From the NCBI GenBank assembly GCA_016202645.1, contig JACQOF010000074.1:1-43827 (forward strand): a stretch of 43,827 nucleotides of DNA. Direction: 5' to 3'. Position numbers and translations under genes: made by a program. A model generated the notes under the pieces. The model made no database searches and was not told the origin of the DNA. It was given only the letters and a program-made list of their open reading frames with translations. Numbering within the stretch: the first letter of the stretch is position 1; each line of letters begins with the position of its first letter. This stretch comes from a bacterium. GTDB taxonomy: Bacteria; Lindowbacteria; 2-12-FULL-62-27. Positions 3-14,677 of this stretch are shown here, piece after piece.

Positions 3-1412
3 CAGGGCTGGACGATGGTGGGGCCGAACAAATCCGTACCGGCGGGGTGGAATTTAAAGAGCACGAGCGGGGGTCTGTCGACTGCCCCGAAGGTATATGT
101 CTGGAACGACGTGACGGACGTCTATGACGAGTCGACCGGCGACGCCGTGCGCGGACTTGCCTACTGGGTCAAGGATGCAACGGGCGGCCGGGTGTTCGTG
201 CCGTCGGACGGGTTCGGGTCCGCGTCCGAGACCGTTCAAGTCCGTCTGAAAACCGGCTGGAACCAGATCGCCAGCGGCCAGTATTTCTTCGTGAGCTGGG
301 ACTCGAGCGTGGTCTTCGACACCTCAAGCCAAAATGACACGGCCCTTCCGGCGTCCGAGCGCCTGACCGCCGAGCAGGCCGGCGCGTCGAATGTCCTTCA
401 GAATAAAGTCTACTGGTACACGGGTTCCAACTACGTCTACGGCCCCGCGAGCGAGACGTTCAGTCTGACAACTCTGCAACTGAAACCGATGGTCGGATTC
501 TGGCTCAACGTCACGACGGCCTGCACGATGTACGTTTACCCAAATCCCGCGGCGGCCGAAACTCATGCCACGGAAATCCTGACGCAATCCGCGAAATACT
601 CGAGCCTGGCTGCCGGCTACAAGCAGACCGGCCAAACCGGCAATGAGCAGAACTGGGCCGTCCAGCTTGTGGCGTCTTCGGGCGGCGTGACCGACTGGCA
701 GAATTACGTCGGCGTGAAACCGACGCTCGCCGAGCGCCGCGCCGCCGGCGCCTTGGAGGCTCCGGGCCTGGCGTCGGGTTATCTCACATTGGCCGTTCGG
801 CCCTCTCTAGGATCTGTATCCAGCAACGCGCAACCAGCATCCAGCACCGACGCCTGGATGGCGGCCAGCTACGCCGACCCGCAGTCCCCGGGCCACGCAT
901 GGGACGTCGTCCTCTCGACGGACCTCGGCGCCGCAACCCTGACGTGGGACAACGTCGACAACCTGCCGTCTGCCTACGAGGCGTATCTGATCGGCGCCCC
1001 GGGCGGCGCCGTGAATTTGCGAAATTCCGCCTCTCTCCCTTTCTCCCTTTCTCCCTCTCTCCCTGTCTCCCTGACCCTGGCCATCGGCTCCCCCGAATTC
1101 GTCGCCCCCTTCATCGCCGCGCCGCTCTCGAAGGAAAATACCTTCATCTACCCCAACCCCGGCCCGGACGACGCGACCGGGAACATGACCTTCAAGTACA
1201 ACCTCCCATCCGCCGCGGACGTCAGCCTGAAAATTTTCGACATGGGCGGCAAGCTCGTAAAGGAAATGAAAGGCTCCGGCATCGCGGGGTCGAACACCCT
1301 CACGTGGGACACCACGAACAAGCACGGCCAGCGCCTTGGGTCGGGCGTGTACATCTACAAGCTCGAGTCTGGCGGGACGACGCTGGTGGACAAGCTTGCC
1401 ATCGTGCGCTGA
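3..1412 (+). CDS. Secreted surface protein with FlgD/T9SS-like C-terminal sorting domain (5' partial)
   Basis: The reading frame is open to the left edge: the codons just before the first ATG (position 15) read QGWT, matching DKWTM in the homologous protein at 11147-14677, so the true start lies outside the window. The visible part has repeated beta-rich modules with the GWN motif (KTGWNQIASG) and aromatic-rich stretches. The last 90 residues (from NTFIYPNPGP to VDKLAIVR) form an FlgD-Ig/T9SS type A-like domain with the typical YPNP start, the SGVYIYKLESG turn and a basic end. Such domains direct export and surface attachment in T9SS bacteria; no T9SS component is visible here. Two short-word arrays lie inside the coding sequence (815-848 and 1029-1078). 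The last ~270 bp and the downstream repeat are nearly the same as at 14400-14840, a sign of duplication. Function beyond surface exposure is unknown. Confidence 0.85.
   Translation, partial: QGWTMVGPNKSVPAGWNLKSTSGGLSTAPKVYVWNDVTDVYDESTGDAVRGLAYWVKDATGGRVFVPSDGFGSASETVQVRLKTGWNQIASGQYFFVSWDSSVVFDTSSQNDTALPASERLTAEQAGASNVLQNKVYWYTGSNYVYGPASETFSLTTLQLKPMVGFWLNVTTACTMYVYPNPAAAETHATEILTQSAKYSSLAAGYKQTGQTGNEQNWAVQLVASSGGVTDWQNYVGVKPTLAERRAAGALEAPGLASGYLTLAVRPSLGSVSSNAQPASSTDAWMAASYADPQSPGHAWDVVLSTDLGAATLTWDNVDNLPSAYEAYLIGAPGGAVNLRNSASLPFSLSPSLPVSLTLAIGSPEFVAPFIAAPLSKENTFIYPNPGPDDATGNMTFKYNLPSAADVSLKIFDMGGKLVKEMKGSGIAGSNTLTWDTTNKHGQRLGSGVYIYKLESGGTTLVDKLAIVR
815..848 (+). repeat. In-CDS word array, 7-bp period
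   Basis: Consecutive 7-mers ATCCAGC, AACGCGC, AACCAGC, ATCCAGC encode the linker SSNAQPASST. The homologous linker of the protein at 11147-14677 carries an unrelated 8-bp word array (14065-14102). Confidence 0.6.
1029..1078 (+). repeat. In-CDS CT-rich word array, 8-bp period
   Basis: 8-mers of the form CTCCCTnT (n = T, T, C, G) end in CTCCCTGA and encode alternating Leu/Ser/Pro residues just before the sorting domain. On the other strand the word is AAAGGGAG with variants AGAGGGAG and ACAGGGAG. A second copy with a different word order is at 14299-14341. Confidence 0.75.
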
Positions 1413-1640
1413 GAATCAGTTGACAATTTCTCATTGGTGCAATGACAGATTGGTGCGATGCTCGCGGGGCCTGATCAATGGTCATTTCATCATTGCACCA
1501 ATGAGGAACGGTCAACGGATTCAGAAGCGTGCTGAATCGGTTGAAAATTGTTCATTGGTGCAATGACAGATTGGTGCAATGCTCGCGAGGCCCTGATCAA
1601 TGGTCATTTCATCATTGCACCAATGAGGAATGGACAACGG
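1413..1640. repeat. Family A inverted repeat array (two units)
   Basis: Two ~115-bp units follow the stop codon directly. Each has a left arm with ATTGGTGCAATGA words, a short variable core (ctcgcggggcctga or similar) and a right arm carrying the inverted words (TCATTGCACCAATG). A second variable spacer (agaagcgtgctgaatc) separates units. Related copies are at 2035-2254, 5722-5946, 14678-14841 and 17771-17879. Confidence 0.85.
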
Positions 1641-1663
1641 AATAAGGAAAAGCATACTCGTAC

Positions 1664-2026
1664 ATGAAAGGCGATGATTTGTCAGACCGATTTGTAGAGT
1701 TTGGCGATGCGGTGCTGACAGTAGTAGAAGGTCTGCCGGAGACAAAAACGGGCCGGCATATTGGCGAACAGCTCATGCGGTCCGGCACGTCCTGCGGCGC
1801 GAATTACGAGGAGGGCCGTGGCGCGGAATCGCGCGGGGACTTTGTTCATAAGCTGGGAGTAACCCACAAGGAACTTCGAGAGAGCCGCTTTTGGTTGAGG
1901 CTTATCCTCAAGCGAAAAATAACGAGAAACGGCGCGGTGGATGTGCTGGAGGAATGCGAGGAATTGTGCGCCATCATCGGGAAAAGCATAGCAACAGCAA
2001 GAACGAGAAAGAGGAGTGATTTGTAA
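1664..2026 (+). CDS. Four-helix bundle protein (23S-IVP/Avd-like family)
   Basis: This 120-residue protein has the signature of the TIGR02436 four-helix bundle family: a GRHIGEQLMRSGTSCGANYE segment, the EEGRGAES acidic motif, then HKLGVTHKELRESRFWL. Family members include proteins encoded in 23S rRNA intervening sequences and, more distantly, Avd, the pentameric accessory protein of diversity-generating retroelements that binds the reverse transcriptase and nucleic acid. It is small and charged and has no signal peptide, so it is probably cytoplasmic. An AAGGAAAAG stretch lies ~13 nt before the ATG. The gene sits between two family A repeat arrays (1413-1640 and 2035-2254) and is an isolated cistron between surface-protein genes. 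A paralogue at 10507-10875 is flanked by a different array family. No reverse transcriptase or rRNA gene is nearby, so its molecular role here is not known. Confidence 0.9.
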   Translation: MKGDDLSDRFVEFGDAVLTVVEGLPETKTGRHIGEQLMRSGTSCGANYEEGRGAESRGDFVHKLGVTHKELRESRFWLRLILKRKITRNGAVDVLEECEELCAIIGKSIATARTRKRSDL

Positions 2027-2034
2027 CGAGTGTT

Positions 2035-2254
2035 GGGCAATGGTCATTTCATCATTGCACCAATGAGGAATGGTCAACGGATTCCCCGGCGTCGGTTGAA
2101 AATTGCCCGTTGGTGCAATGACAGATTGGTGCAATGGTCGGGAGGCCCTGAATAATGGTCATTTCATCATTGCACCAATGAGGAATGGTCAACGGATTCC
2201 CCGGCGTCGGTTGAAAATTGCCCGTTGGTGCAATGACAGATTGGTGCAATGGTC
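2035..2254. repeat. Family A inverted repeat array (two near-identical tandem units)
   Basis: The unit starting at 2041 recurs at 2156, a 115-bp period, with almost no difference. The spacers here read ccccggcgtcg and gtcgggaggccctga, unlike those of the copy at 1413-1640. Confidence 0.85.
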
Positions 2255-2393: not shown

Positions 2394-2467
2394 TTTGGCT
2401 GTTGGCTGTTTGCTGTTGGCTTACTTCTGTAGGCCATCAGCCAATAGCCAACAGCCATCAGCAAACC
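2394..2467. repeat. Family B word array, 7-bp period, inverted arms
   Basis: The left arm is TTGGCTG, TTGGCTG, TTTGCTG, TTGGCT; a 10-nt core (tacttctgta) follows; the right arm is CAGCCAA, TAGCCAA, CAGCCAT, CAGCAAA. It ends six bases before the Shine-Dalgarno GGGAGG of the gene at 2489. Confidence 0.8.
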
Positions 2468-2488
2468 AAATAGGGAGGAATACCCGCC

Positions 2489-5400
2489 ATGACCCGATTT
2501 CTGACCGGCGCTCTGCGCCTGATATTCGCTGTTCTTCTGTTCAGCCAATGGCCAATAGCCAACAGCCAATGGCAAACCAGAGCGGAAGCGGCCGAGCCCA
2601 ACAAATACATCTCCTTCCAAGGGCAACTGAGCGACTCGACCGGTGCGCGGATCAACGGGAATGTTTCCGCGACGTTCAAGCTCTGGAGCGTGCCGACGGG
2701 CGGGACGGCGCTGTGGACGGAGGCGCAGACCATGGCGGCGGACAACGGCGTGACGAGCGCGACCCTCGGATCGGTGACGGGGCTGACCCTGCCGTTTGAC
2801 ACGCAGTACTGGCTGGGCGTGACGGTCGGATCGGACGCGGAGATGAGCCCGCGGATCAGGCTGGCGGCGGCGCCGTACGCGTTTACGGCGTACAGCCTCA
2901 CGGACAGCGCGCTGGCGCGGGGGACGTTGAAGGTGGCGGGTGCGGCGACGTTTTCCGATTCATTGATCGTGTCGGACACTGTCTTGTTCGTGAACAAGCA
3001 GACGGGCCGAGTCGCCACCGGCACATCGTCTCCGACGACGGCTCAATTGCATGTGGAGGGCCAGATTTATCTCCGAAGCAATGGCGGCGCGCAGATGACG
3101 ATTCTGAACTTGGACGCAACGGCCGGTTCCGCCGGCGCGGCGAGGGTTACGCTGGTTCCGCAAAATGCGGCAACCCAGCAGGACATTTGGGGAATTGACG
3201 GAGCGATAAGTCTTCGCACGGGCGGCGTCCCGGGTGTGGTGAGCGCGAGTGAACGCATCCGCATTTCATCCGCCGGCGCGGTTGGCGTCGGAACCGCCGC
3301 CCCAACCGACAGTCTTCACGTCGGCGGCCGCATCCTGATGGACACGAACACCCAGACGGCCGCGTCGGACGGCGCGATCCGGTGGTCAGGATCGGATTTC
3401 GAGGGGCGAAAAGCCGGATCGTGGGTGTCGCTCACGTCGGTGGGGACAGTGTCGCCAAGTTCCCTCTCGTCGGCCATTACGTCCGACAGCATCGCGGCGG
3501 ACGCGGTGACGTCGGCCAAGATCCTGGACGGCACGATAGCGAATGCGGATCTGGCCTCCGGGAGCTTTCCGAGCGTCACGGGCGTCGGTACGCTTGGGAC
3601 ATTGACCGTCTCCGGTACATCCGCCTTTTCCGATTCGGTGGTCGTGTCAGACACGGTTTTGGTCGTCAACAAACAATCGGGCAAGGTCGGTGTCGGCACA
3701 GCGGGGCCGGCCGGCTCCCTCCATGTCAAAGGCTCCAATACGTTATGGACAAACCCGCATGTTGAGATCGAGCATACAACAAGTGGTTCGTCCAAGATCA
3801 TGCAATCGTCTTCTGGACTTCTATTTCGGAATTTCAATCCAACGGGCACGAATGTGGCGTTTGATTTCAGGGACCCCACGCTCGACCTGTCGACGCTGAC
3901 AATCCTTGCCAATCGCAACGTCGGTGTTGCAACGGGGGCTCCGGCAGATAGTCTGCACGTGAACGGTACGTTGCGGGTCGAGGACACGATGGTGGTCGGC
4001 GACACGTGGTTGGTGGTGGACAAGAGCGGCCGGGTGGGGGTTGGGACGACGAGTCCGGCATATCCCCTTCATGTGAGCGGCGGCAACAGCCAGGTCCGAT
4101 TTGGTTCAAGCAATGCGGACGAGGGCGGGTATCTCATCAGCACCACGAACAACCAGGCTCTCGTGACGGGCGGCGGTTCGTGGAATGGAACAAACTGGAT
4201 CGCCAAATCGACCGAGTTTGGGTATATGGGAACCCAGAACGGTTCTGTGGTTTTCCAAGGCAACGACGGCCTGACGCCGGGCTCGTCCTTTACCCCCAAG
4301 TCCCTCATGCGAGTTGACGTCAACGGCAACGTCGGCATCCGCACGAGCGCGGCAACCCCCGCCGACAGCCTGCAGGTGGCCGGCCGGATTCTGATGGACA
4401 CCGTGACCGGCACGGGCGGCGCAGATGGCGCGATTCGGTGGTCAGGATCGGATTTCGAGGGGCGCAAGGCCGGGTCGTGGGTGTCGCTCACGGCGGGCGG
4501 TATTGGGGGCGACTCTTGGACGATCAACCATGCCACGAACGTGATCTCCAGCGCCAATAGCGGTAAAGTCTCGCTCGGATCGCTGACCGTTTCCGGCGTC
4601 TCCAGCTTCTCCGACTCGCTCATCGTGTCGGACACGGTATTGGTGGTCAACAAACAGAGCGGCAACGTCGGCGTGGGGACGGCTTCGCCAGCGTTTCCGC
4701 TGTCGTTTCCCAACACGCTTGGCGACAAGATCGCGCTCTACGGCGCGTCGGGCAACAATTTCGGGCTGGGCGTCCAGAGTTTCCTCATGCAGATCCACAC
4801 CTCCGGCAGTAACGAGGACATCGGATTCGGCTACGGGCAGAGCGGAAGTTTCTCGGAAGTCATGCGCATCAAAGGCACGGGCAACGTCGGCATCGCGACG
4901 GCCGCTCCGGCCGACAGCCTCACCGTGAACGGGTCCCTCACGGCCGACTCGCCGACCCTGGTGGTTCATTCCGGCAACAACCGGATCGGCGTCCGCACGG
5001 ACAATCCGCGCGCGCCGGTGGAAATTAAAAACGGCGTGCTGGGCTGGCAGGATCATATCCTTTTGAGCGGCTCCAGCGCCGGCACCGCATACTGGATCGG
5101 GCGGAACGACGACGAGGACGGAACCGCCGAGCCGACGGACCGGCTGGCCTTCGGCACCGGTACCACGGCCGGGACAAACGCAGCCATGCATATCTCCTCC
5201 AACGGCAACATCTCCATCGGCGACACCCCCGCCCCCGAGAAACTGGCCGTATTTGGATCGATGATGGTCGATTCGCCGACATTTTACGTCGACGCGGTGA
5301 ACAATCGGGTCGGCATCGGCACCTCCGCGCCCGACACGACCTTTTCCGTCAACGGCGAAGCCTCCAAAGCCGGCGGCGGGACGTGGAACACGTTTTCCGA

Positions 5401-5710
5401 CGGGCGGCTCAAGGACATCAACGGTGAATTCACGGCGGGCGCGGAGGAACTCATGAAGCTCCGCCCCATCCGCTACCGCTACAAGCGGGACAATCCGGCG
5501 GGCATCCGCGAGCACGCCGAGCATGTCGGTTTGGTGGCGCAGGAAGTCCAGTCGGCGATCCCGGAAGCGGTCTACGCGAACAACCAGGGATACCTCATGC
5601 TCAAAAGCGATCCGATCATATGGGCGATGCTGAACGCGATCAAGCAGCAGCAGGCGGAGATCGCGACCCTTCGCGCGGAAATGGAAGTTCTGAGGGGAGC
5701 GGCGCGTTAG
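2489..5710 (+). CDS. Exported tail-fibre-like repeat protein with C-terminal S74 chaperone domain
   Basis: This is a 1073-residue protein. The start is fixed by GGGAGGAA at 2473-2480, 8 nt before the ATG. A signal peptide (hydrophobic LIFAVLLF, likely cleavage near AEA/AEP at residue ~34) precedes ISFQGQLSDSTG, a domain common at the N-terminus of such surface proteins. The body is made of recurring cassettes: VGVGTASP-like beta turns with DSLHVNG, VVSDTVLVVNKQSG, and WSGSDFEGRKAGSWVSL. The last ~110 residues (FSDGRLKDI..., VGLVAQEVQSAIPEAV, then a coiled coil) are a Peptidase_S74 intramolecular chaperone, which drives trimerisation of fibre proteins and often cleaves itself at the Ser of SD-x-RLK; that Ser and Lys are present. 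A trimeric cell-surface fibre is likely. Its closest relative is the next gene; they share near-identical blocks. The signal peptide contains family B repeat words (2542-2579). Confidence 0.88.
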   Translation: MTRFLTGALRLIFAVLLFSQWPIANSQWQTRAEAAEPNKYISFQGQLSDSTGARINGNVSATFKLWSVPTGGTALWTEAQTMAADNGVTSATLGSVTGLTLPFDTQYWLGVTVGSDAEMSPRIRLAAAPYAFTAYSLTDSALARGTLKVAGAATFSDSLIVSDTVLFVNKQTGRVATGTSSPTTAQLHVEGQIYLRSNGGAQMTILNLDATAGSAGAARVTLVPQNAATQQDIWGIDGAISLRTGGVPGVVSASERIRISSAGAVGVGTAAPTDSLHVGGRILMDTNTQTAASDGAIRWSGSDFEGRKAGSWVSLTSVGTVSPSSLSSAITSDSIAADAVTSAKILDGTIANADLASGSFPSVTGVGTLGTLTVSGTSAFSDSVVVSDTVLVVNKQSGKVGVGTAGPAGSLHVKGSNTLWTNPHVEIEHTTSGSSKIMQSSSGLLFRNFNPTGTNVAFDFRDPTLDLSTLTILANRNVGVATGAPADSLHVNGTLRVEDTMVVGDTWLVVDKSGRVGVGTTSPAYPLHVSGGNSQVRFGSSNADEGGYLISTTNNQALVTGGGSWNGTNWIAKSTEFGYMGTQNGSVVFQGNDGLTPGSSFTPKSLMRVDVNGNVGIRTSAATPADSLQVAGRILMDTVTGTGGADGAIRWSGSDFEGRKAGSWVSLTAGGIGGDSWTINHATNVISSANSGKVSLGSLTVSGVSSFSDSLIVSDTVLVVNKQSGNVGVGTASPAFPLSFPNTLGDKIALYGASGNNFGLGVQSFLMQIHTSGSNEDIGFGYGQSGSFSEVMRIKGTGNVGIATAAPADSLTVNGSLTADSPTLVVHSGNNRIGVRTDNPRAPVEIKNGVLGWQDHILLSGSSAGTAYWIGRNDDEDGTAEPTDRLAFGTGTTAGTNAAMHISSNGNISIGDTPAPEKLAVFGSMMVDSPTFYVDAVNNRVGIGTSAPDTTFSVNGEASKAGGGTWNTFSDGRLKDINGEFTAGAEELMKLRPIRYRYKRDNPAGIREHAEHVGLVAQEVQSAIPEAVYANNQGYLMLKSDPIIWAMLNAIKQQQAEIATLRAEMEVLRGAAR
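2542..2579 (+). repeat. Family B words inside the signal peptide coding sequence, copy 1
   Basis: CAGCCAA, TGGCCAA, TAGCCAA, CAGCCAA, TGGCAAA follow each other without gaps and encode QWPIANSQWQ at the end of the signal peptide. They are the same 7-mers as the right arm of the array 75 bp upstream. Confidence 0.8.
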
Positions 5711-5721
5711 ACAATAATTGA

Positions 5722-5946
5722 GCAATGGTCATTTCATCATTGCACCAATGAGGAAATGGTCAACGGATTCCGCGGCATCGGTTGAAAATTGTTCATTGGT
5801 GCAATGACAGATTGGTGCAATGGTCAGGAGGCTCTGATCAATGGTCATTTCATCATTGCACCAATGAGGAATGGTCAACGGATTCAGAAGCGGGTCGAAA
5901 CGGTTGAAAATTGCTCATTGGTGCAATGACAGATTGGTGCAATGGT
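5722..5946. repeat. Family A inverted repeat array (two units)
   Basis: Two units with a 116-bp period (5726 and 5842) begin 12 bp after the stop of the fibre gene. Spacers differ (cgcggcatcgg; agaagcgggtcgaaacgg; gtcaggaggctctga), while the hairpin arms are almost unchanged. Confidence 0.85.
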
Positions 5947-5952
5947 CAAGAA

Positions 5953-6080
5953 TAGCAAATGGCGTGTTTCCCCGTCTCACGGGATAAATGGTTTACAGGT
6001 TTCAGATGTTCTTTACCATGGCTGCGGCGATCCGCGGCTCACGGGGCATTGAAGGACGCCCCATAGATGGGTGGTTGAAA
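5953..6080 (+). promoter_or_regulatory. Conserved 5' leader of S74 fibre gene, copy 2
   Basis: It is homologous to 2266-2388: CCCG-TCTCA-CGGG hairpin, ataaatggtttaca, a GCGG-CGAT-CCGC hairpin, GGGGC...GCCCC, atagatggg. The 465-bp gap 5711-6175 therefore holds a repeat array, this leader and a word array, in that order, exactly as in the 2027-2488 gap. Confidence 0.45.
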
Positions 6081-6083
6081 TTC

Positions 6084-6158
6084 GCTATTGGCTGATTGGC
6101 TAATAGCTAACGGCTAATAGCTAACAGCAAACAGCTATTAGCCAACAGCAAATAAACC
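6084..6158. repeat. Family B word array, copy 2
   Basis: Words built on TTGGCTn and nAGCTAA, with CTATTGG, CTGATTGG, CTAATAGCTAA and, on the right, CTATTAG, CCAACAG, form an imperfect inverted array. It ends just before the Shine-Dalgarno GGGAGG of the gene at 6176. Confidence 0.75.
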
Positions 6159-6175: not shown

Positions 6176-9100
6176 ATGACTCGATTCGCTGAAGGTATTT
6201 CCCGACTTGTTGTCGCTTTTCTCATGTTTGGCCTATGGCCAATAGCCAACAGCCAATGGCAAACAGTAGTGGAAGCGGCCGAGCCCAACAAATACATTTC
6301 GTTCCAAGGACAGCTGAGCGACTCGACCGGGGCGCGGATCAACGGGAATGTTTCCGCGACGTTCAAGCTCTGGAGCGTGCCGGCCGGCGGGACGGCGCTG
6401 TGGACGGAGGCGCAGACTCTGGCGGCGGACAACGGCATCACAAGCGCGACGCTCGGATCGGTGACGGGGCTGACGTTGCCGTTTGACACGCAGTACTGGC
6501 TGGGCGTCACGGTGGGAACGGACGCGGAGATGAGCCCGCGGATCAGGCTGGCGGCGTCGCCGTACGCGTTTACGGCGTACAGTCTGACGGACAGCGCGCT
6601 GGCGCGGGGGACGTTGACGGTGGCGGATACGGCGGTAATCAACGGATGGGTCGGCATCGGCACGGCGAGTCCCGCCGCCCGGTTGGACGTGGCGGGTGGT
6701 TCCTCCGTCGGCGGCGAAGCCGCCCTGATCGGGGGCCCGCTGGGGGTGGGGAAAGGCGGCGTCGTTGGCGGACGGCTGAGTTTGTTCAGCACCACAGGTC
6801 GCCAATTAACGCTGGAGATGTCCGATACCAATGACGCGGTTATCTCAAATAGCTTTGGCAAAATTCGGGTCACGCCGGTCACGGACTTCATCGTTTCGGA
6901 CACGCTGTTGGTCGTGAACAAGCAGAACGGCAGGGTCGGCATCGGCACGGCCAGTCCTGCTCAGAATCTGGATGTGGCCGGCACCGTGCAGGCCACGGCG
7001 TTTGTGGGGGATGGATCGGGACTAACGGGCCTATCGACGAGCGCCGCTCCGGACACGGACTGGACCGTCGACGGCTCGGGGAATGTGTACAGAACCACGG
7101 GAAACGTCGGCATCGGGACGGCGTCTCCGTCTGACAGCCTTCATGTGATGGGCAGGATACGAATGGATGGAGGGCCGGATGACCAGATGATTGACTTCAT
7201 CAAAAGCGGCACAATAGGGTCTTCAAGCAGTCCGGACACGTTTAGGATCCACGGCGCCGGTGGTATTCATCTCCGAACCTTTGGCAGTTCTTGGGCTGAC
7301 CGCATGAACATCACAAGCACTGGCAACGTCGGCATCGGGGATACGACACCGGGGGCCAAGTTGCGCGTCGCGGGCGATGTTTCTGTTTCTGATTCGCTGG
7401 TGGTGGGGGACACGCGGTTGGTTGTATTAAAGAGCGGCAACGTCGGCATCGGGACGGCGGCTTCAGCTTATCCATTGGACGTGCAGAACAGCGTCTCCGC
7501 CGGCGCCGCGTGGCCACAGCTTCGCCTCACGAACACTGCGGATTATATCTCAGGCGTTTCACTGGTCCGCAGCAGTGGAGCCGCCGGCGGCGAGTGGGTC
7601 GTTTCCCGGAGCAACAGCGCGGGCGCCGGAGGATCCCAGCCCGATGCATTTACGATTGGAGTGAACGGTGTCGGCAACTACCTCAGCATCACCACTGCCG
7701 GCAATGTCGGAGTAGGAACTCAGAGCCCGGCGAACATACTCTCCGTGGCGGGAAACTCGAATTTCGCAGGCAACGTCGGCATCGGGACGACGGCGCCCGG
7801 GGACAGTCTGCATGTCTCCGGCCGGATTCAAATGGACACGAACGCCGCGACAAGCGCGGCGGACGGCGCGATGCGGTGGTCGGGATCGGATTTCGAGGGG
7901 CGAAAAGGCGGATCGTGGGTGTCGCTCACGTCGGTTGGGACGGTGTCGCCAAGCTCCCTCTCGTCGGCCATTACGTCCGACAGCATCGCGGCGGACGCGG
8001 TGACGTCGGCCAAGATATTGGACGGCACAATCGCGAACGCGGATCTGGCCTCCGGGAGTTTTCCAAGCGTCACGAGCGTCGGCACGCTCGGCTCGCTGAC
8101 CGTCTCCGGCGTCTCCAGTTTTTCAGATTCCCTGATTGTGTCGGACACAGCGTTGGTGGTCAACAAGCAAAGCGGCAAAGTCGGCGTCGGGACCGCGAGT
8201 CCCAACATCGGCAGTTTCACCGGCGTGGAGATTTCGGCCCCCGCTGCCGGCTTGGCGCTGACGTCAACCGACGGCGGCGGCCGGCGGTTCATCATCGGAT
8301 CGACGACGGGCAACGCGGGGCTTTACGTCCGGGACGAAACCGCCGGGTCGTATCGGATGATGCTGGCCGACTCCGGGTCGCTCGGCATCGGAACGATCGG
8401 CCCGGACCGGATGCTGGACGTGCTCGACGCCGGCAACCCGCAGGTGCGTCTCACCCAGGCTGATGCGACGGCTTACGCGGACTTGCACATGAGGAGCACC
8501 GGCGATCTCGTGATAAACGTCGACGGCGTTGCGGATCAACTCGTCCTCGACAATGGCGGCAACGTCGGCATCGGGACGACGAGTCCGGGGGATAGTCTGC
8601 ACGTGAACGGAACATTACGCGTCGAGGACACGATGGTGGTGGGCGACACGTGGCTGGTTGTGGACAAGAGCGCCAAAGTCGGCGTCGGTACCGCGAGTCC
8701 TTCCGAGCAATTGCACGTCAAGGGGACGTCCCATAACAGGCTGAAGGTCGAGGGGGGGACCGGGAGTTCCGTCGGCATGAACATGGTTGAAGGCGCCAAC
8801 AGCTCGTTTGTCCAGGTCGAAAATGGAAACCGGATGGGATTCTATTCCGGCGATCAGACCACGGCCGACATGGTGCTGACCTATGGCGGCAACCTCGGGA
8901 TCGGTACAGGCACCCCGTCTGACAGTCTGCACGTGGTTGGCCGCGCGAGGATTTCCGACACGCTGACCGTCGGGGATTCCTACATCGTGGCAGGCCCGGC
9001 GGGCGTTGGCATCCGGAACCTGAGTCCCTCCGGCATCCTTGACATCAGAACTGGCAACGAGTACGAGCTTCGGTTTTCTGGAAATTTCATCGCCAACATC

Positions 9101-10369
9101 AACCATGCCAACGCCGGCACGCCCATGTTCGTGAGCACCAACGGCGCCCAGCTTTCGCTGGGCAGCAACACCGACGCCGAGCATCTCAACATCCTGAACG
9201 GCAACGTCGGCATCGGCACGACGGCTCCAGGGGATAGTCTGCACGTGAACGGTACGTTGCGGGTCGAGGATACGATGGTGGTCGGCGACACGTGGCTGGT
9301 GGTCGATAAAAACGGGAATGTCGGCGTCGGGACCACCACGCCGCTTGGCAATCTCACGGTCGCCAGTTCCGGCGCCACCCGCGAACTGATGGTTCTGCGC
9401 AGGAACGACTCGACCACAAAATGGTCCATCGGAAATATCACCTCCAACTTCAACCTCTACGGGTTTACAGGCGCCACCTCGGCCAGCACGGACCTCAAAC
9501 TGGCCGTGACGTCCGCCGGCAACGTCGGTATCGCGACGGCCGCTCCGGCCGACAGCCTCACCGTGAACGGATCCTTCACGGCCGACTCGCCGACTTTGGT
9601 GGTCCACTCGGGCAACGACCGCGTCGGCGTCCGCACGGACAATCCGCGCGCGCCAGTCGAAATTAAAAACGGCGTCTTGGGCTGGCAGGACCACGTTCTT
9701 TTGAGCGGGTCCAGCACCGGCACCGCATACTGGATCGGGCGGAACGACGACGAGGACGGAACCGCCGAGCCGACGGACCGGCTGGCCTTCGGCACCGGAA
9801 CGACCGCGGGAACGAACGCAGCCATGCACATCTCCTCCAACGGCAACATTTCCATCGGCGACACCCCCGCTCCCGAGAAACTGGCCGTGTTTGGATCGAT
9901 GATGGTCGATTCGCCGACATTTTACGTCGACGCGGTGAACAATCGGGTCGGCATCGGCACCTCCGCGCCCGACACGGACTTTTCCGTCAACGGCGAGGCC
10001 AGCAAATCCGGCGGAGGGACTTGGAACACGTTTTCAGACGTGCGCTTGAAGGACATCAAAGGGCAGTTTGCGGCGGGTTCGGAAGCGCTCATGAAGATCC
10101 ACCCGGTCCGGTACAGCTACAGGAAAGACAACGGCGCGGGCCTCCGGGATCATTCCGAAAAGGTTGGGCTCATCGCGCAGGAAGTCGCCGAAGCGATCCC
10201 GGACGCGGTCTACTCGAACAATCAGGGCTATCTCATGCTCAAAAGCGACCCGATCATCTGGGCGATGTTGAACGCGATCAAGGAACAGCAGGTCCGGATG
10301 GACGCGCAGTCGGTTGAAATCGAGGCGCTGAAGGAGGAGATCGGTGTCTTGAAGCGGGGGAATGAGTAG
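6176..10369 (+). CDS. Exported tail-fibre-like repeat protein with C-terminal S74 chaperone domain (long paralogue)
   Basis: This 1397-residue paralogue of the preceding gene has a GGGAGG Shine-Dalgarno 12 nt before the ATG. The order is: signal peptide with the same WPIANSQWQT segment, the ISFQGQLSDSTG domain, about a dozen VGIGTASP/DSLHVNG cassettes, and an S74 chaperone (FSDVRLKDIKG, VGLIAQEVAEAIPDAV) ending in a short coiled coil. The cassette NGTLRVEDTMVVGDTWLVVD occurs twice here (near 8610 and 9250) and once in the first paralogue (near 3963). The stretch from ~9520 to 10020 is almost identical to 4890-5390, whereas the central parts differ in number and content of cassettes, as expected from recombination between repeats. 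The S74 Ser and Lys are kept. A cell-surface or appendage fibre is the likely role; the ligand is unknown. Confidence 0.88.
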   Translation: MTRFAEGISRLVVAFLMFGLWPIANSQWQTVVEAAEPNKYISFQGQLSDSTGARINGNVSATFKLWSVPAGGTALWTEAQTLAADNGITSATLGSVTGLTLPFDTQYWLGVTVGTDAEMSPRIRLAASPYAFTAYSLTDSALARGTLTVADTAVINGWVGIGTASPAARLDVAGGSSVGGEAALIGGPLGVGKGGVVGGRLSLFSTTGRQLTLEMSDTNDAVISNSFGKIRVTPVTDFIVSDTLLVVNKQNGRVGIGTASPAQNLDVAGTVQATAFVGDGSGLTGLSTSAAPDTDWTVDGSGNVYRTTGNVGIGTASPSDSLHVMGRIRMDGGPDDQMIDFIKSGTIGSSSSPDTFRIHGAGGIHLRTFGSSWADRMNITSTGNVGIGDTTPGAKLRVAGDVSVSDSLVVGDTRLVVLKSGNVGIGTAASAYPLDVQNSVSAGAAWPQLRLTNTADYISGVSLVRSSGAAGGEWVVSRSNSAGAGGSQPDAFTIGVNGVGNYLSITTAGNVGVGTQSPANILSVAGNSNFAGNVGIGTTAPGDSLHVSGRIQMDTNAATSAADGAMRWSGSDFEGRKGGSWVSLTSVGTVSPSSLSSAITSDSIAADAVTSAKILDGTIANADLASGSFPSVTSVGTLGSLTVSGVSSFSDSLIVSDTALVVNKQSGKVGVGTASPNIGSFTGVEISAPAAGLALTSTDGGGRRFIIGSTTGNAGLYVRDETAGSYRMMLADSGSLGIGTIGPDRMLDVLDAGNPQVRLTQADATAYADLHMRSTGDLVINVDGVADQLVLDNGGNVGIGTTSPGDSLHVNGTLRVEDTMVVGDTWLVVDKSAKVGVGTASPSEQLHVKGTSHNRLKVEGGTGSSVGMNMVEGANSSFVQVENGNRMGFYSGDQTTADMVLTYGGNLGIGTGTPSDSLHVVGRARISDTLTVGDSYIVAGPAGVGIRNLSPSGILDIRTGNEYELRFSGNFIANINHANAGTPMFVSTNGAQLSLGSNTDAEHLNILNGNVGIGTTAPGDSLHVNGTLRVEDTMVVGDTWLVVDKNGNVGVGTTTPLGNLTVASSGATRELMVLRRNDSTTKWSIGNITSNFNLYGFTGATSASTDLKLAVTSAGNVGIATAAPADSLTVNGSFTADSPTLVVHSGNDRVGVRTDNPRAPVEIKNGVLGWQDHVLLSGSSTGTAYWIGRNDDEDGTAEPTDRLAFGTGTTAGTNAAMHISSNGNISIGDTPAPEKLAVFGSMMVDSPTFYVDAVNNRVGIGTSAPDTDFSVNGEASKSGGGTWNTFSDVRLKDIKGQFAAGSEALMKIHPVRYSYRKDNGAGLRDHSEKVGLIAQEVAEAIPDAVYSNNQGYLMLKSDPIIWAMLNAIKEQQVRMDAQSVEIEALKEEIGVLKRGNE
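6230..6264 (+). repeat. Family B words inside the signal peptide coding sequence, copy 2
   Basis: GGCCTATGGCCAA, TAGCCAA, CAGCCAA, TGGCAAA encode LWPIANSQWQ in the signal peptide of the long fibre protein. The words match those upstream of the gene and those in the first paralogue. Confidence 0.8.
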
Positions 10370-10506: not shown

Positions 10507-10875
10507 ATGAAGGGTGACGATGTCTCTGATCGCATGGTGGCGTTCGGAGCGACTGTTCTGGATCTGGCGGAGGCTCTTCCCCAAACGCGGTCCGGACGGC
10601 ATGTGGCCGATCAGGTCATGCGGTCGGGAACGTCCTGCGGCGCGAACTTTGAGGAGGGGCGCGGCGCGGAATCACGAGCGGATTTTGTGCACAAGCTGTC
10701 GGTGACGCACAAGGAGCTTAAGGAAACCCGATACTGGCTTCGCGTGGTGGTGAAGAGAAAAATGTCAGACGGCGTCGCGGTCGAGCTTCTTGAGGAGTGC
10801 GAAGAACTCTGCGCGATTATTGGGAAGAGCATATCGACTGCCAAAGGCGGCCGTAAAGAATCGGTTGAGACTTGA
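10507..10875 (+). CDS. Four-helix bundle protein (23S-IVP/Avd-like family), second copy
   Basis: This 122-residue paralogue of the protein at 1664-2026 has GRHVADQVMRSGTSCGANFE, EEGRGAES and HKLSVTHKELKETRYWL, plus an ELLEECEELCAIIGKSI C-terminal helix. AAAGG lies ~11 nt before the ATG. The family folds as an antiparallel four-helix bundle and often forms oligomers; Avd of diversity-generating retroelements belongs to the wider group. The gene is flanked by two copies of the family D array. The right copy overlaps the end of the gene: the last residues (ESVET) and the stop codon are read from array sequence, so the array has become part of the protein. No reverse transcriptase, template repeat or rRNA is nearby. 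Function unknown; association with repeats is seen directly. Confidence 0.9.
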   Translation: MKGDDVSDRMVAFGATVLDLAEALPQTRSGRHVADQVMRSGTSCGANFEEGRGAESRADFVHKLSVTHKELKETRYWLRVVVKRKMSDGVAVELLEECEELCAIIGKSISTAKGGRKESVET

Positions 10876-11146: not shown

Positions 11147-14100
11147 ATGAAACGAATTAAACTCATGGCTCTTACGGCGCTGATTCTCGCGGGAATTGGC
11201 CTCATCGCCTATGCCCTTCTGACTTCGACCAACTACCAGTACACCGAAACCGTGCTGGTGACCGGGGGCGATACCGCCGCGTCGGTGAATTACCGGTATA
11301 CCGCCGGGCTGGGCCAGCCCGCGGCCTCGGATAGCGTCGCGAGCGCCAACTACGTGATGCGGCCGGGGTTTTATCACGAGATCACCGCCGCGCATACCGG
11401 GTCGATCTGGTATGTGAACGCGTCGACCGGGCACGACACCCTTGGAAACGGAACGTCCTCCAGTCCCTTCAAGACCATCCAGCGCGGCGTCAACTCCGCC
11501 GCGGCCGGCGAGACCGTTCAGATCGCGGCCGGGACCTACACCGAGACGACCATTCTCATCACGACGTCCAACATCGCGCTCGTCGGCGCCGATTCGCGCA
11601 CCACCATCATCGACCCGCCCGGCGCCAACACCGTCACGAATCTTTACGGGATCCTCGCGCAGAATGTGACAGGGCTCGTCCTCAAAAATCTCGGTGTGAC
11701 CGGCGCCTACACCGGCGTGCGGTTCGACAACGTCGACTTCTCTACCGTCACCGGCGACAGTTTCGGATCAAACAGCCGGCACGGCATCGAGCTGGTGAAC
11801 GGGTCCGACACGAACACCATCACCCAGTGCGACCTCAGCCACAACGTCGTCGGGTCCGGGTTCGGGATCGAAATCAACGGCAGCGCCTTCAACACCCTTT
11901 CAAACAGCATCCTCAACGCCAACGGGCAGTACGGCGTCTACACATCGAGCGGCAACGACAACACCGTCTCGGGAAACACGGTGAATTCCAACTCGAGCTA
12001 CGGAATGTTTCTCCTGAACAGCGCCCGGCTCATCGTCAAGAACAACACCGTCACCGGCGGCGCCTCGCAGGGCATCCGGCTGAACAATGGATCGAACTGC
12101 GTCTTCACCGGAAACACCGTGAACTCCAACCAATACGGCATCGTGATCGCCGGCCCAAGCGCGCGCGTGACGAACAACGTCATGTCGCAAAATTCCATCT
12201 ACGGCCTCTGGGTCATCAACGGCTCGAACCTCTACGCCGCGCAGAACACCATCACCGACAACACCCAATACCAGATTTCCTTCGACCCTCTCGGCCCGAC
12301 AAACTCCCTCGTCGAGAAGAACAACTTCAAGACTTCCACCACCAACCCCGACAGCATCGTCTACAACCGGTCCGACACCATCCAGACCGTGACCCGGAAC
12401 TGGTGGGGCACGACCGACGAGGCCGTCATCCGGACCAAAATCTTCGACACCGCCGCAAGTCTGAAAACCACATTCAAACCCTATCGCCTCGCCCAGGTCG
12501 ACACCGCCGCCGGCGCCGATACCGGCGCGCCGATGGAACCGCAGGCCGTCGCGGCGAACACGTCGATTGCAGGCGCCGTGCAGATCACGTGGACCAATCC
12601 GGCCTTCGACGAGGACACCGCAACCCAGACGGCCTTCGGCGGCGTCGACGTCTACCGCCTCGTCAACGTCCCCGACTCGGCCAACTGGGTCGGCCAGCTC
12701 CTCGTAAGCCTCACGGGGACCCCGACCTCCTACACCGACGCCGCCGTGAGCGTCGGAAACACCTACTATTACCGCCTGTCGTCGCACGACACCGCGACGC
12801 TCGTCAATTCCAGTTTTCTCACCGACACCGTCTCGGGTTCGCCCGTCTCCGGCAGCGCCGGCGATTCGGTCCTCGTCGACAGCGGCAGCCACCAGATCAT
12901 CTCCAACGGCGGAAACGCCACGCTGTCGATGGACGTGAAGGATTCGGCCTCCGGCACGCTCATCACGAGCGCGAGCGTCAGCGTCACCGCGGTTTTCAAC
13001 GGCGCCGCCGTCTCCGCGCTCGACACCACCCTCACCACCGACACCGCCGGCCGCGCGCGGGTCGTGCTGAAACTCTCGCAGGGCGAAGGCGTCTACGTCT
13101 TCACCGCGTCCCCGGCCCTGAGCGGCGGCCAGAAGGCGCGCTTCGTCGTCTACACCGACCGCCGGCCGGTACAGGCCGACAAGTGGACGATGTTCGCGCC
13201 GTTCAAGAAACCCGTCTCCGGCGTGAACGGCATCACCGTGAACGGGACCCCCGGCCCGGGAAGCGTCATCCTGTATTGGTACGACCCGGCGGCCACAGCG
13301 GTTACGACCTTCGGCCAGTACAAGTCCGTGAGCGGCCAGGCCAGCCCCAACAGTTCCACCGCCGGAACCTTCTCGGATTTTCAGTCCGGCCGCGCCTACT
13401 GGGCGAAATCCGTCGGCGCCGCCGTGACGATCGGCGCGGCGTCCGGCGCCTCCGACGTTCCCGAGACCGTGTACTATCAGGTCCACGTCAAGGAAGGCTG
13501 GAACATGGTCGGCAATCCATTTCCGTTTTTCATCGACTGGGAGCAGGACGTTTTTTTCGACACGAATCCTCTGGATACGGAAGCCCTGCAGTGCATCACG
13601 ACGGCGGCCGCCGAGACTGCCGGGGTTCTCACCAACAAAATCTACTGGCGGGACGAGAGCGTACTGAGCGGAAACGTCGGCTACCGCTACGGCCCATCGA
13701 CTGCCACGTCGACCGAGACCACCGTCCAGCTCAAACCCTGGGCGGGATTCTGGGTCTACCTGCCACCGGCCCCGGCGGTCTGCGACACCGGTTGTACGCT
13801 TCTCTTTTCCGGTTCCATCAAACGCATCCCGCAGACCGTGCCGATCCAACAGCAGGCGCCTTCTTATCTGACAGAAACGGAGAAAGGGAGAGCCGGCGAG
13901 CCGGAGAATTGGGTCATTCAGATCAAGGCAGTCGGGCAGAACGGCGCAAGGGATGATTACAACTTCGTCGGCGTCGCGCCCGGCGCGAAGGAAGGCTACG
14001 ACCGGCATGACGCCTACAAGGCGCCGCCGATTGGCGATTATGTGCAGGTTGGCGTCCGTCCTTTGAGTGTATCGGAGTATCGGAGTATCGGAGTATCGGA

Positions 14101-14677
14101 GAAACCCCAGAGTCCGTTGATGGCGGCGAGCTTGGTGCCGCCCGTCACGACGGTGGCCACGTGGGAGGTTGTTGTCGCGGCCAGTTCAGCCGGCGCGGCC
14201 ACGCTTTCGTGGGACGCCGCGGCTTTGCCGGGAGGCTATGGCGCATATCTCCTGGGCGGCCCCGCCGGTCCTGTTGATTTGCTGAAGTCCCAATCCCTGC
14301 CTCTCTCCCTTTCTCCCTCTCTCCCTTTCTCCCTGACCTTGACCCTGGCCGTCGGCACGCCCGAACACCTCGCGCCGTTCCTCGCCGCGCCGCTCTCGAA
14401 AGAAAACACGTTCATCTACCCGAACCCGGGTCCGGACGCGACGGGAAGCATGAGCTTCAAATACAACCTGCAGGGCGCCGCGGATGTCAGCCTGAAAATT
14501 TTCGACATGGGCGGCAAGCTTGTGAAGGAGATGAAAGGTTCGGGCATCGCCGGATCGAACACCCTCACGTGGGACACCACGAACAAGCACGGCCAGAGGC
14601 TCGGGTCGGGCGTCTACATCTACAAGCTCGAGTCGGGGGGGACGACGCTGGTGGACAAGCTTGCCATCGTGCGCTGA
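11147..14677 (+). CDS. Secreted right-handed beta-helix protein with T9SS-like sorting domain
   Basis: This is a 1176-residue protein with a signal peptide (MKRIKLMALTALILAGIGLI). A segment starting SIWYVNASTGHD and SPFKTIQRGV is typical of pectate-lyase-fold/DUF1565 beta-helix proteins, and is followed by many N-rich coils (NTVNSNSSYGM, NNGSNCVFTGNTVNS) of a parallel beta-helix to about residue 430. Then come a fibronectin type III-like module (ITWTNPAFDED...YYYRLSSHD), an invasin-like Ig module, the DKWTMFAPF/EGWNMVGNPFPF region shared with the protein at 3-1412, and the FlgD/T9SS-like sorting domain. A GAGGTGATGT Shine-Dalgarno-like stretch precedes the ATG. Beta-helix proteins often bind or cleave polysaccharides; no catalytic set could be named here. 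Two word arrays interrupt the C-terminal region (14065-14102, 14299-14341). Confidence 0.87.
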   Translation: MKRIKLMALTALILAGIGLIAYALLTSTNYQYTETVLVTGGDTAASVNYRYTAGLGQPAASDSVASANYVMRPGFYHEITAAHTGSIWYVNASTGHDTLGNGTSSSPFKTIQRGVNSAAAGETVQIAAGTYTETTILITTSNIALVGADSRTTIIDPPGANTVTNLYGILAQNVTGLVLKNLGVTGAYTGVRFDNVDFSTVTGDSFGSNSRHGIELVNGSDTNTITQCDLSHNVVGSGFGIEINGSAFNTLSNSILNANGQYGVYTSSGNDNTVSGNTVNSNSSYGMFLLNSARLIVKNNTVTGGASQGIRLNNGSNCVFTGNTVNSNQYGIVIAGPSARVTNNVMSQNSIYGLWVINGSNLYAAQNTITDNTQYQISFDPLGPTNSLVEKNNFKTSTTNPDSIVYNRSDTIQTVTRNWWGTTDEAVIRTKIFDTAASLKTTFKPYRLAQVDTAAGADTGAPMEPQAVAANTSIAGAVQITWTNPAFDEDTATQTAFGGVDVYRLVNVPDSANWVGQLLVSLTGTPTSYTDAAVSVGNTYYYRLSSHDTATLVNSSFLTDTVSGSPVSGSAGDSVLVDSGSHQIISNGGNATLSMDVKDSASGTLITSASVSVTAVFNGAAVSALDTTLTTDTAGRARVVLKLSQGEGVYVFTASPALSGGQKARFVVYTDRRPVQADKWTMFAPFKKPVSGVNGITVNGTPGPGSVILYWYDPAATAVTTFGQYKSVSGQASPNSSTAGTFSDFQSGRAYWAKSVGAAVTIGAASGASDVPETVYYQVHVKEGWNMVGNPFPFFIDWEQDVFFDTNPLDTEALQCITTAAAETAGVLTNKIYWRDESVLSGNVGYRYGPSTATSTETTVQLKPWAGFWVYLPPAPAVCDTGCTLLFSGSIKRIPQTVPIQQQAPSYLTETEKGRAGEPENWVIQIKAVGQNGARDDYNFVGVAPGAKEGYDRHDAYKAPPIGDYVQVGVRPLSVSEYRSIGVSEKPQSPLMAASLVPPVTTVATWEVVVAASSAGAATLSWDAAALPGGYGAYLLGGPAGPVDLLKSQSLPLSLSPSLPFSLTLTLAVGTPEHLAPFLAAPLSKENTFIYPNPGPDATGSMSFKYNLQGAADVSLKIFDMGGKLVKEMKGSGIAGSNTLTWDTTNKHGQRLGSGVYIYKLESGGTTLVDKLAIVR
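14065..14102 (+). repeat. In-CDS word array, 8-bp period (AGTATCGG)
   Basis: Four copies of AGTATCGG in a row encode SVSEYRSIGVSE. The equivalent linker of the homologous protein (815-848) has a different word, so the site is shared but the content is not. Confidence 0.75.
14299..14341 (+). repeat. In-CDS CT-rich word array, second copy
   Basis: 8-mers CTCCCTTT, CTCCCTCT, CTCCCTTT, CTCCCTGA encode the Leu/Ser/Pro linker before the sorting domain, at the same place as 1029-1078 but in another order and number. Confidence 0.75.

Follow-up and report, generated by a model that had tools for sequence, protein, structure and literature searches.

Dispersed heptamer-word arrays as a likely source of signal-peptide sequence in a Candidatus Lindowbacteria relative

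The window, the whole 43,827-nt stretch of DNA analysed here, corresponds to contig C48 in a draft genome of 2.9 Mb (146 contigs, 82% complete) of an uncultured Candidatus Lindowbacteria relative. It contains two paralogous genes for predicted fibre-like secreted proteins, both with a C-terminal Peptidase_S74 domain (PF13884, 1.5e-11 and 2.2e-10), two four-helix-bundle genes and several arrays of short repeated words (Table 1). Near-identical units of 115–122 bp (CAATGGTCATTTCATCATTGCACCAATGAGG...) lie at 1413–1641 and 2039–2254, around the first four-helix-bundle gene, and at 5719–5948 between the S74 genes. The leaders of the two S74 genes (2250–2389 and 5965–6085) have in common a stretch with inverted repeats (CACGGGGC...GGACGCCCCATAGATGGG) that lacks an Rfam match, and an Rfam scan of the whole window returned no RNA matches.

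Table 1. Genes and word arrays in the window (positions counted from its first letter).
Feature	Position	Strand	Remarks
Octamer array (CTCTCCCTTTCTCCC) in linker before FlgD/Por_Secre tail of secreted protein	1025..1078	+	
Word array (CAATGGTCATTTCATCATTGCACCAATG...) left of first four-helix-bundle gene	1413..1641	.	
Four-helix-bundle gene (PF05635, 23S_rRNA_IVP), upstream of paralogue 1	1664..2026	+	
Matching word array right of first four-helix-bundle gene	2039..2254	.	
Upstream palindromic heptamer-word array before Shine–Dalgarno of S74 paralogue 1	2397..2466	+	sequence, RNA fold
Shine–Dalgarno GGGAGG	about 2472..2477	+	read in sequence
S74 (chaperone of endosialidase) fibre-like secreted protein 1	2489..5710	+	1073 aa; predicted
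Export signal region, paralogue 1	2489..2596	+	about 26–35 aa, read from translation
Coding heptamer-word array, paralogue 1	2543..2575 (34-nt stretch 2542–2575)	+	AGCCAATGGCCAATAGCCAACAGCCAATGGCAAAC, translated SQWPIANSQWQT; insertion in 11-sequence alignment
Upstream palindromic array (hairpin), S74 paralogue 2	6087..6153	+	words AGCTAAY/AGCAAAY
S74 fibre-like secreted protein 2	6176..10369	+	1397 aa; predicted
Coding heptamer-word array, paralogue 2	6230..6264	+	translation LWPIANSQWQT
Second four-helix-bundle gene (PF05635)	10507..10875	+	GCAAAGA/TTGCTTTG words either side
Octamer array at homologous linker site of beta-helix protein 11147–14677	14294..14337	+	

The array before paralogue 1 is an imperfect hairpin of 7-nt words with arms GGCTGTTGGCTGTTTGCTGTTGGCT and GGCCATCAGCCAATAGCCAACAGCC, and the surrounding region (2390–2600) is predicted to fold as a local hairpin (z −5.8). 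The coding array starts 77 bp past it, within the gene that opens at the ATG at 2489. Its words, in order AGCCAAT GGCCAAT AGCCAAC AGCCAAT GGCAAAC, translate to SQWPIANSQWQT within the signal MTRFLTGALRLIFAVLLFSQWPIANSQWQTRAEAAEP, and GCAAACCA terminates the coding array and the upstream arm alike. The 7-mers common to the two arrays include CAGCCAA, TAGCCAA, AGCCAAT, AGCCAAC and GCAAACC. A sequence-only reading of this DNA had named three words as common to both; CAGCCAA and TAGCCAA indeed occur on both sides, and TGGCCAA occurs in the coding copy only. Its broader claim, that the array upstream of the Shine–Dalgarno shares words with the coding stretch, is borne out by a best ungapped match of 20, where the best of 2000 dinucleotide shuffles scored 14 or 16, depending on the side shuffled. 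With one mismatch allowed, the two-word pattern RGCCAAYRGCCAAY matches the window 16 times, where 0.36 matches would be expected by chance, and every match falls at the start of one or other S74 gene.

By inspection, the N terminus of paralogue 1 has the traits of a Sec signal: R residues, a hydrophobic LIFAVLLF stretch and a cleavage site that the −3,−1 rule places at ANS/Q or AEA/A. Both paralogues also pass as signal peptides with a crude rule-based caller. QWPIANSQWQ, the segment put forward as part of the signal peptide, sits inside the predicted N-terminal export signal of both, where it falls at the h/c border or in the c-region rather than in the hydrophobic core.

The start of paralogue 2 is built in the same way, with an upstream hairpin and a coding array. 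Identity between the paralogues is 31/34 in the coding array and 279/300 in the mature part, compared with 31/53 in the n/h region and 51/75, with gaps, in the upstream array; the coding copy has thus been kept like protein sequence and the non-coding hairpin has not. This pattern suggests that the hairpin turns over, and that the coding copy has either been held or been homogenised in step with the mature part. In both S74 genes, two junctions able to read TAG in frame read TGG. Among non-coding arrays, T/AGC junctions outnumber T/GGC junctions by 96 to 36 (11 to 1 in the strict form). Stop avoidance as a reading of the TGG junctions is suggestive only, with two junctions per gene and TGG-type junctions occurring in non-coding arrays too.

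These words belong to a family dispersed over the genome. Genome-wide, the word pattern has 262 matches, against 42 for a reversed control pattern, and about 25 AGCCAAY-word arrays are scattered over the genome, mostly palindromic, with inverted arms, and mostly between genes. Two of them (on contigs C71 and C77) adjoin an apparent Shine–Dalgarno.

Fibre homologues for comparison came from two sister genera, Candidatus Lindowbacteria RIFCSPLOWO2_12_FULL_62_27 and nzgw232. In an 11-sequence alignment, the SQWPIANSQW block stands out as an insertion: it is absent from all nine sister-genus homologues, so that the conservation in distant array-free homologues by which the sequence-only reading would have been refuted did not appear. 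The comparison behind this insertion is with homologues of other genera. Some array-free sister signal peptides are equally long in the alignment, which makes length by itself weak proof. Length changes in steps of 7 or 21 bp, which the sequence-only reading had suggested as a signature, were not seen; the length difference to the homologues of other genera is roughly 4–16 residues. In a fibre homologue of Candidatus Lindowbacteria 62_27 (L055, on G001:C17), this position is taken by an array of other words, TTCGCTT TCCACTT TGCACTT TTCACTT, translated FAFHFALFT; these CTTTNCA words provide an independent case in a fibre homologue. In a Caldithrix sp. fibre homologue, the signal-peptide region contains about five TGTATTT-like words, a weaker case because the array is T-rich. 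Among the 19 homologue signal peptides scanned, no further array rose above threshold.

CTTTNCA arrays occur in two genomes, where most code for signal peptides of other secreted proteins, mainly of the kelch family (LLILALSTFLFPLFTPSEAQAAN in an example from the same genome as the window). A census of in-ORF arrays over 2.0 Mb (0.77 Mb of G000 and 1.2 Mb of G001) yielded 40 of period 7, 24 of period 8, none of period 5 and 7 each of periods 10 and 11; some of these sit in spurious wrong-strand ORFs, and the cases used here have Pfam or PDB support or show a clear signal peptide ahead of a recognisable protein. Arrays of period 7 or 8 were found in 6/142 crudely called signal peptides versus 4/803 other N-termini (P 0.0013), small counts whose edges are soft given the crude caller. 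For period 7, the controls gave 0/343 interior segments and 0.00 per codon shuffle. Signal peptides coded by arrays belong to S74 fibre, kelch, TPR, fn3/F5-8C and OMPP1-like proteins, a trypsin/PDZ protease and a 3951-aa protein, from the same genome or a sister genus, and several of these families use 7–8-nt words unlike AGCCAAY. At the start of a TPR protein (L259 8129–8281; G000:C65 21829–21981), both arms of a GGGAGAAA palindrome are read in one frame, one arm giving charged residues and the other a hydrophobic stretch.

Arrays are also found outside export signals. In the linker ...VNLRQSSSLV-[array]-LTLAVGLPEYLAPF... that precedes the FlgD/Por_Secre tail, seven homologues, two of them in the window, have arrays at one site with CTTTCTCC, AATCCAA or CTTTTCA words, and three homologues are array-free there. 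Relative to solved structures, GlmM (L259:17623–19332), a cytosolic enzyme, has in-frame array insertions in at least two places (about 6 and 11 residues), and in-frame array insertions are present in LeuB (15 residues), PepA (8 residues) and aconitase (6 residues). The process is thus not confined to export, and signal peptides are one site among those that tolerate it. Several ORFs contain, in frame, words of yet another vocabulary, CGATACTC/GAGTATCG (window 14062–14107; G000:C125 21727, C102 5350 and C103 9153).

Word arrays also frame the four-helix-bundle genes. Using at least 10 reverse-complement 8-mers common to both 330-bp flanks as the criterion, inverted word arrays flank 24/38 PF05635 loci versus 7/290 control genes (Fisher P 1e-20), the loci being drawn from many genomes and the control genes from G000 and G001 only. 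The second PF05635 gene of the window has a low score by this measure, though its flanking words are visible by eye. The words vary by copy (GGGAGAAA, CCTAAAT, GGGATTA, CAATGGT, ACAGAAG). On contig C35, the array beside a PF05635 gene itself codes for the signal peptide of the neighbouring fn3/F5-8C protein. In this case (L087/L135; G000:C35 8894–9355), the signal peptide reads MNLFRRPGLTFSLSPFLPLSLTFCLSFLPFSLSPFLPLQKAHA and, as we read it, the PF05635 stop overlaps the ATG (ATGA). At another locus (L128; G001:C6 152600–154300), a PF05635 gene lies between two copies of one kelch signal-peptide array, the first of which runs into a short, apparently broken ORF. Neither PF05635 gene of the window is in a 23S rRNA; both stand between protein genes in a window that has no Rfam RNA. 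None of the five PF05635 genes above the cut-off in the same genome has AGCCAAY flanks, so the link of the window's own array to PF05635 is by analogy only; related AGCTATT words flank a PF05635 gene in another genome (L141).

Taken together, these observations make it likely, in our judgement, that QWPIANSQWQ is a copy of a dispersed array that entered an ancestral S74 gene and was kept, as one instance of a process that recurs with other vocabularies. About five words from one arm of a palindromic array of AGCCAAY/AGCTAAY heptamers would have been copied or inserted in frame near the start of the ancestral fibre gene before the S74 duplication, and would then have been carried through it. 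The strand that entered would have been open in frame, with TAG-prone junctions reading TGG, and would have supplied residues for the h/c border that include a possible A-N-S cleavage site; the copy may have been kept because signal peptides tolerate such sequence. By the same process, arrays of other words would repeatedly have entered signal peptides, the linkers ahead of secretion tails and loops of enzymes in this lineage. The sequence-only reading that a non-coding repeat was built into an export signal is supported to this extent: the words form a dispersed, mostly non-coding family and the block is an insertion relative to sister homologues. That the array came first and the coding sequence later, and that selection keeps the coding copy, we infer from these comparisons.

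The hairpins invite a different view, in which the coding array and the upstream left arm close over the Shine–Dalgarno and start codon in the mRNA as a translational switch, and the protein reading is incidental. The gene-start regions of both paralogues fold better than shuffles, and in the minimum-energy fold of paralogue 2 the outer left arm does pair with the coding array and encloses both elements. In paralogue 1, however, the upstream arms pair together and the coding array takes no part; the upstream arrays have diverged (51/75), the coding copies remain alike (31/34) and matching changes are absent, and other signal-peptide arrays, such as that of L055, have no upstream arm of the same words. 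With the fold in paralogue 2 only and no compensating change, an RNA switch through coding/upstream pairing was rejected, and the switch reading as a whole is improbable. Convergence deserves a little more credit, though it too is unlikely: local slippage within a simple hydrophobic signal sequence would give period-7 DNA, and the likeness to the dispersed arrays would be a by-product. The arrays are short and imperfect, and in situ slippage ordinarily generates tandem copies. Yet the coding array is built of words that this genome also uses in its dispersed arrays, down to an ending in common with the upstream arm, and SQWPIANSQWQ is not strongly hydrophobic; period-7 arrays are absent from codon shuffles and interior controls, and word arrays are present in enzyme loops and linkers too.

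The direction could also be reversed, with the upstream hairpin and the dispersed arrays copied out from the coding copy. In each paralogue one gene start holds both copies, so position leaves direction unfixed, but the words form over 20 further arrays elsewhere, mostly palindromic, and the sister homologues are without a coding copy; we consider this order of events very improbable. An assembly or binning artefact might be suspected in a draft metagenome genome that is 82% complete and in 146 contigs. The same pattern appears, however, in independent genomes (G001, which is MFPR01, and Caldithrix MESS01), and the inserts are in frame within conserved enzymes, leaving this explanation scarcely credible.

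The reading of QWPIANSQWQ as a kept array copy can be extended, more doubtfully, to a role for the four-helix-bundle genes. Inverted arrays often flank PF05635 genes and the C35 array codes for a neighbour's signal peptide, which hints that elements with a PF05635 gene spread the arrays, or that the arrays are the solo ends of such elements. Arrays spread in this way might be a recurring raw material for export signals, and it is conceivable, though we would not expect it, that many signal peptides of the lineage were made so. The pyrimidine-rich strand would give the hydrophobic stretch and the partner arm the charged residues, making a palindrome near a start codon a ready-made signal peptide.

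The birth of a signal peptide is rarely visible in sequence. Here the likely donor DNA, its products (export signals, linkers and enzyme loops) and array-free relatives are found together in one bacterial family. Two questions can therefore be tested directly: whether functional pieces of protein come from repeat DNA, and whether the element that spreads the arrays includes PF05635 genes, which have mainly been known from intervening sequences in rRNA. Junk-like DNA thus seems to have been repeatedly turned into protein sequence in this bacterium.

The closest precedents include the Rickettsia palindromic elements (RPE), Yersinia RU-2 and the TAACTGA heptamers. RPEs, reportedly described by Ogata et al. 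in 2000, a study cited in PMC2759123, form families of roughly 100–150 bp with one consensus each. Like them, the repeats described here are small, palindromic and dispersed, with copies between genes and inside genes of ordinary function, at insertion-tolerant places, where they are in-frame insertions relative to homologues and leave the reading frame intact. Unlike RPEs, the unit here is an array of 7–8-nt words with many vocabularies and a variable copy number. The enterobacterial RU-1 and RU-2 small mobile sequences are MITE-like units of 127–168 bp (PMC2759123) and in this differ from the word arrays. TAACTGA direct repeats, as far as the accessible part of the report goes, lie mostly close upstream of start codons and in some cases in ORFs at protein edges, with one orientation limited by stop codons (PMC4679880). 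They resemble our arrays as heptamers near starts and in ORFs; they differ, in that same part of the report, in having one conserved word and no predicted hairpin, signal-peptide cases or four-helix-bundle link (PMC4679880). The accessible text on Geobacter metallireducens describes elements of four heptanucleotide repeats (GGACCGG) at 49 places between and within genes, which differ in being read as regulatory, with one word per class and no mention there of export signals (PMC2700814). The 23S rRNA intervening sequence with its S23/IVP gene also places a PF05635 gene within inverted repeats (PMC4990558), whereas the PF05635 genes of the window adjoin genes for secreted proteins and have copy-specific word arrays as ends. 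The open-access literature covered here contained nothing relevant on Lindowbacteria repeats or on word arrays around four-helix-bundle genes. Small mobile in-gene repeats thus have precedents, as do heptamers inside ORFs and close to their starts (PMC4679880) and heptanucleotide elements within genes (PMC2700814). As far as the open-access literature shows, what is new is that many vocabularies are used, that the arrays recur in signal peptides and at a single linker site, and that they are associated with PF05635 genes.
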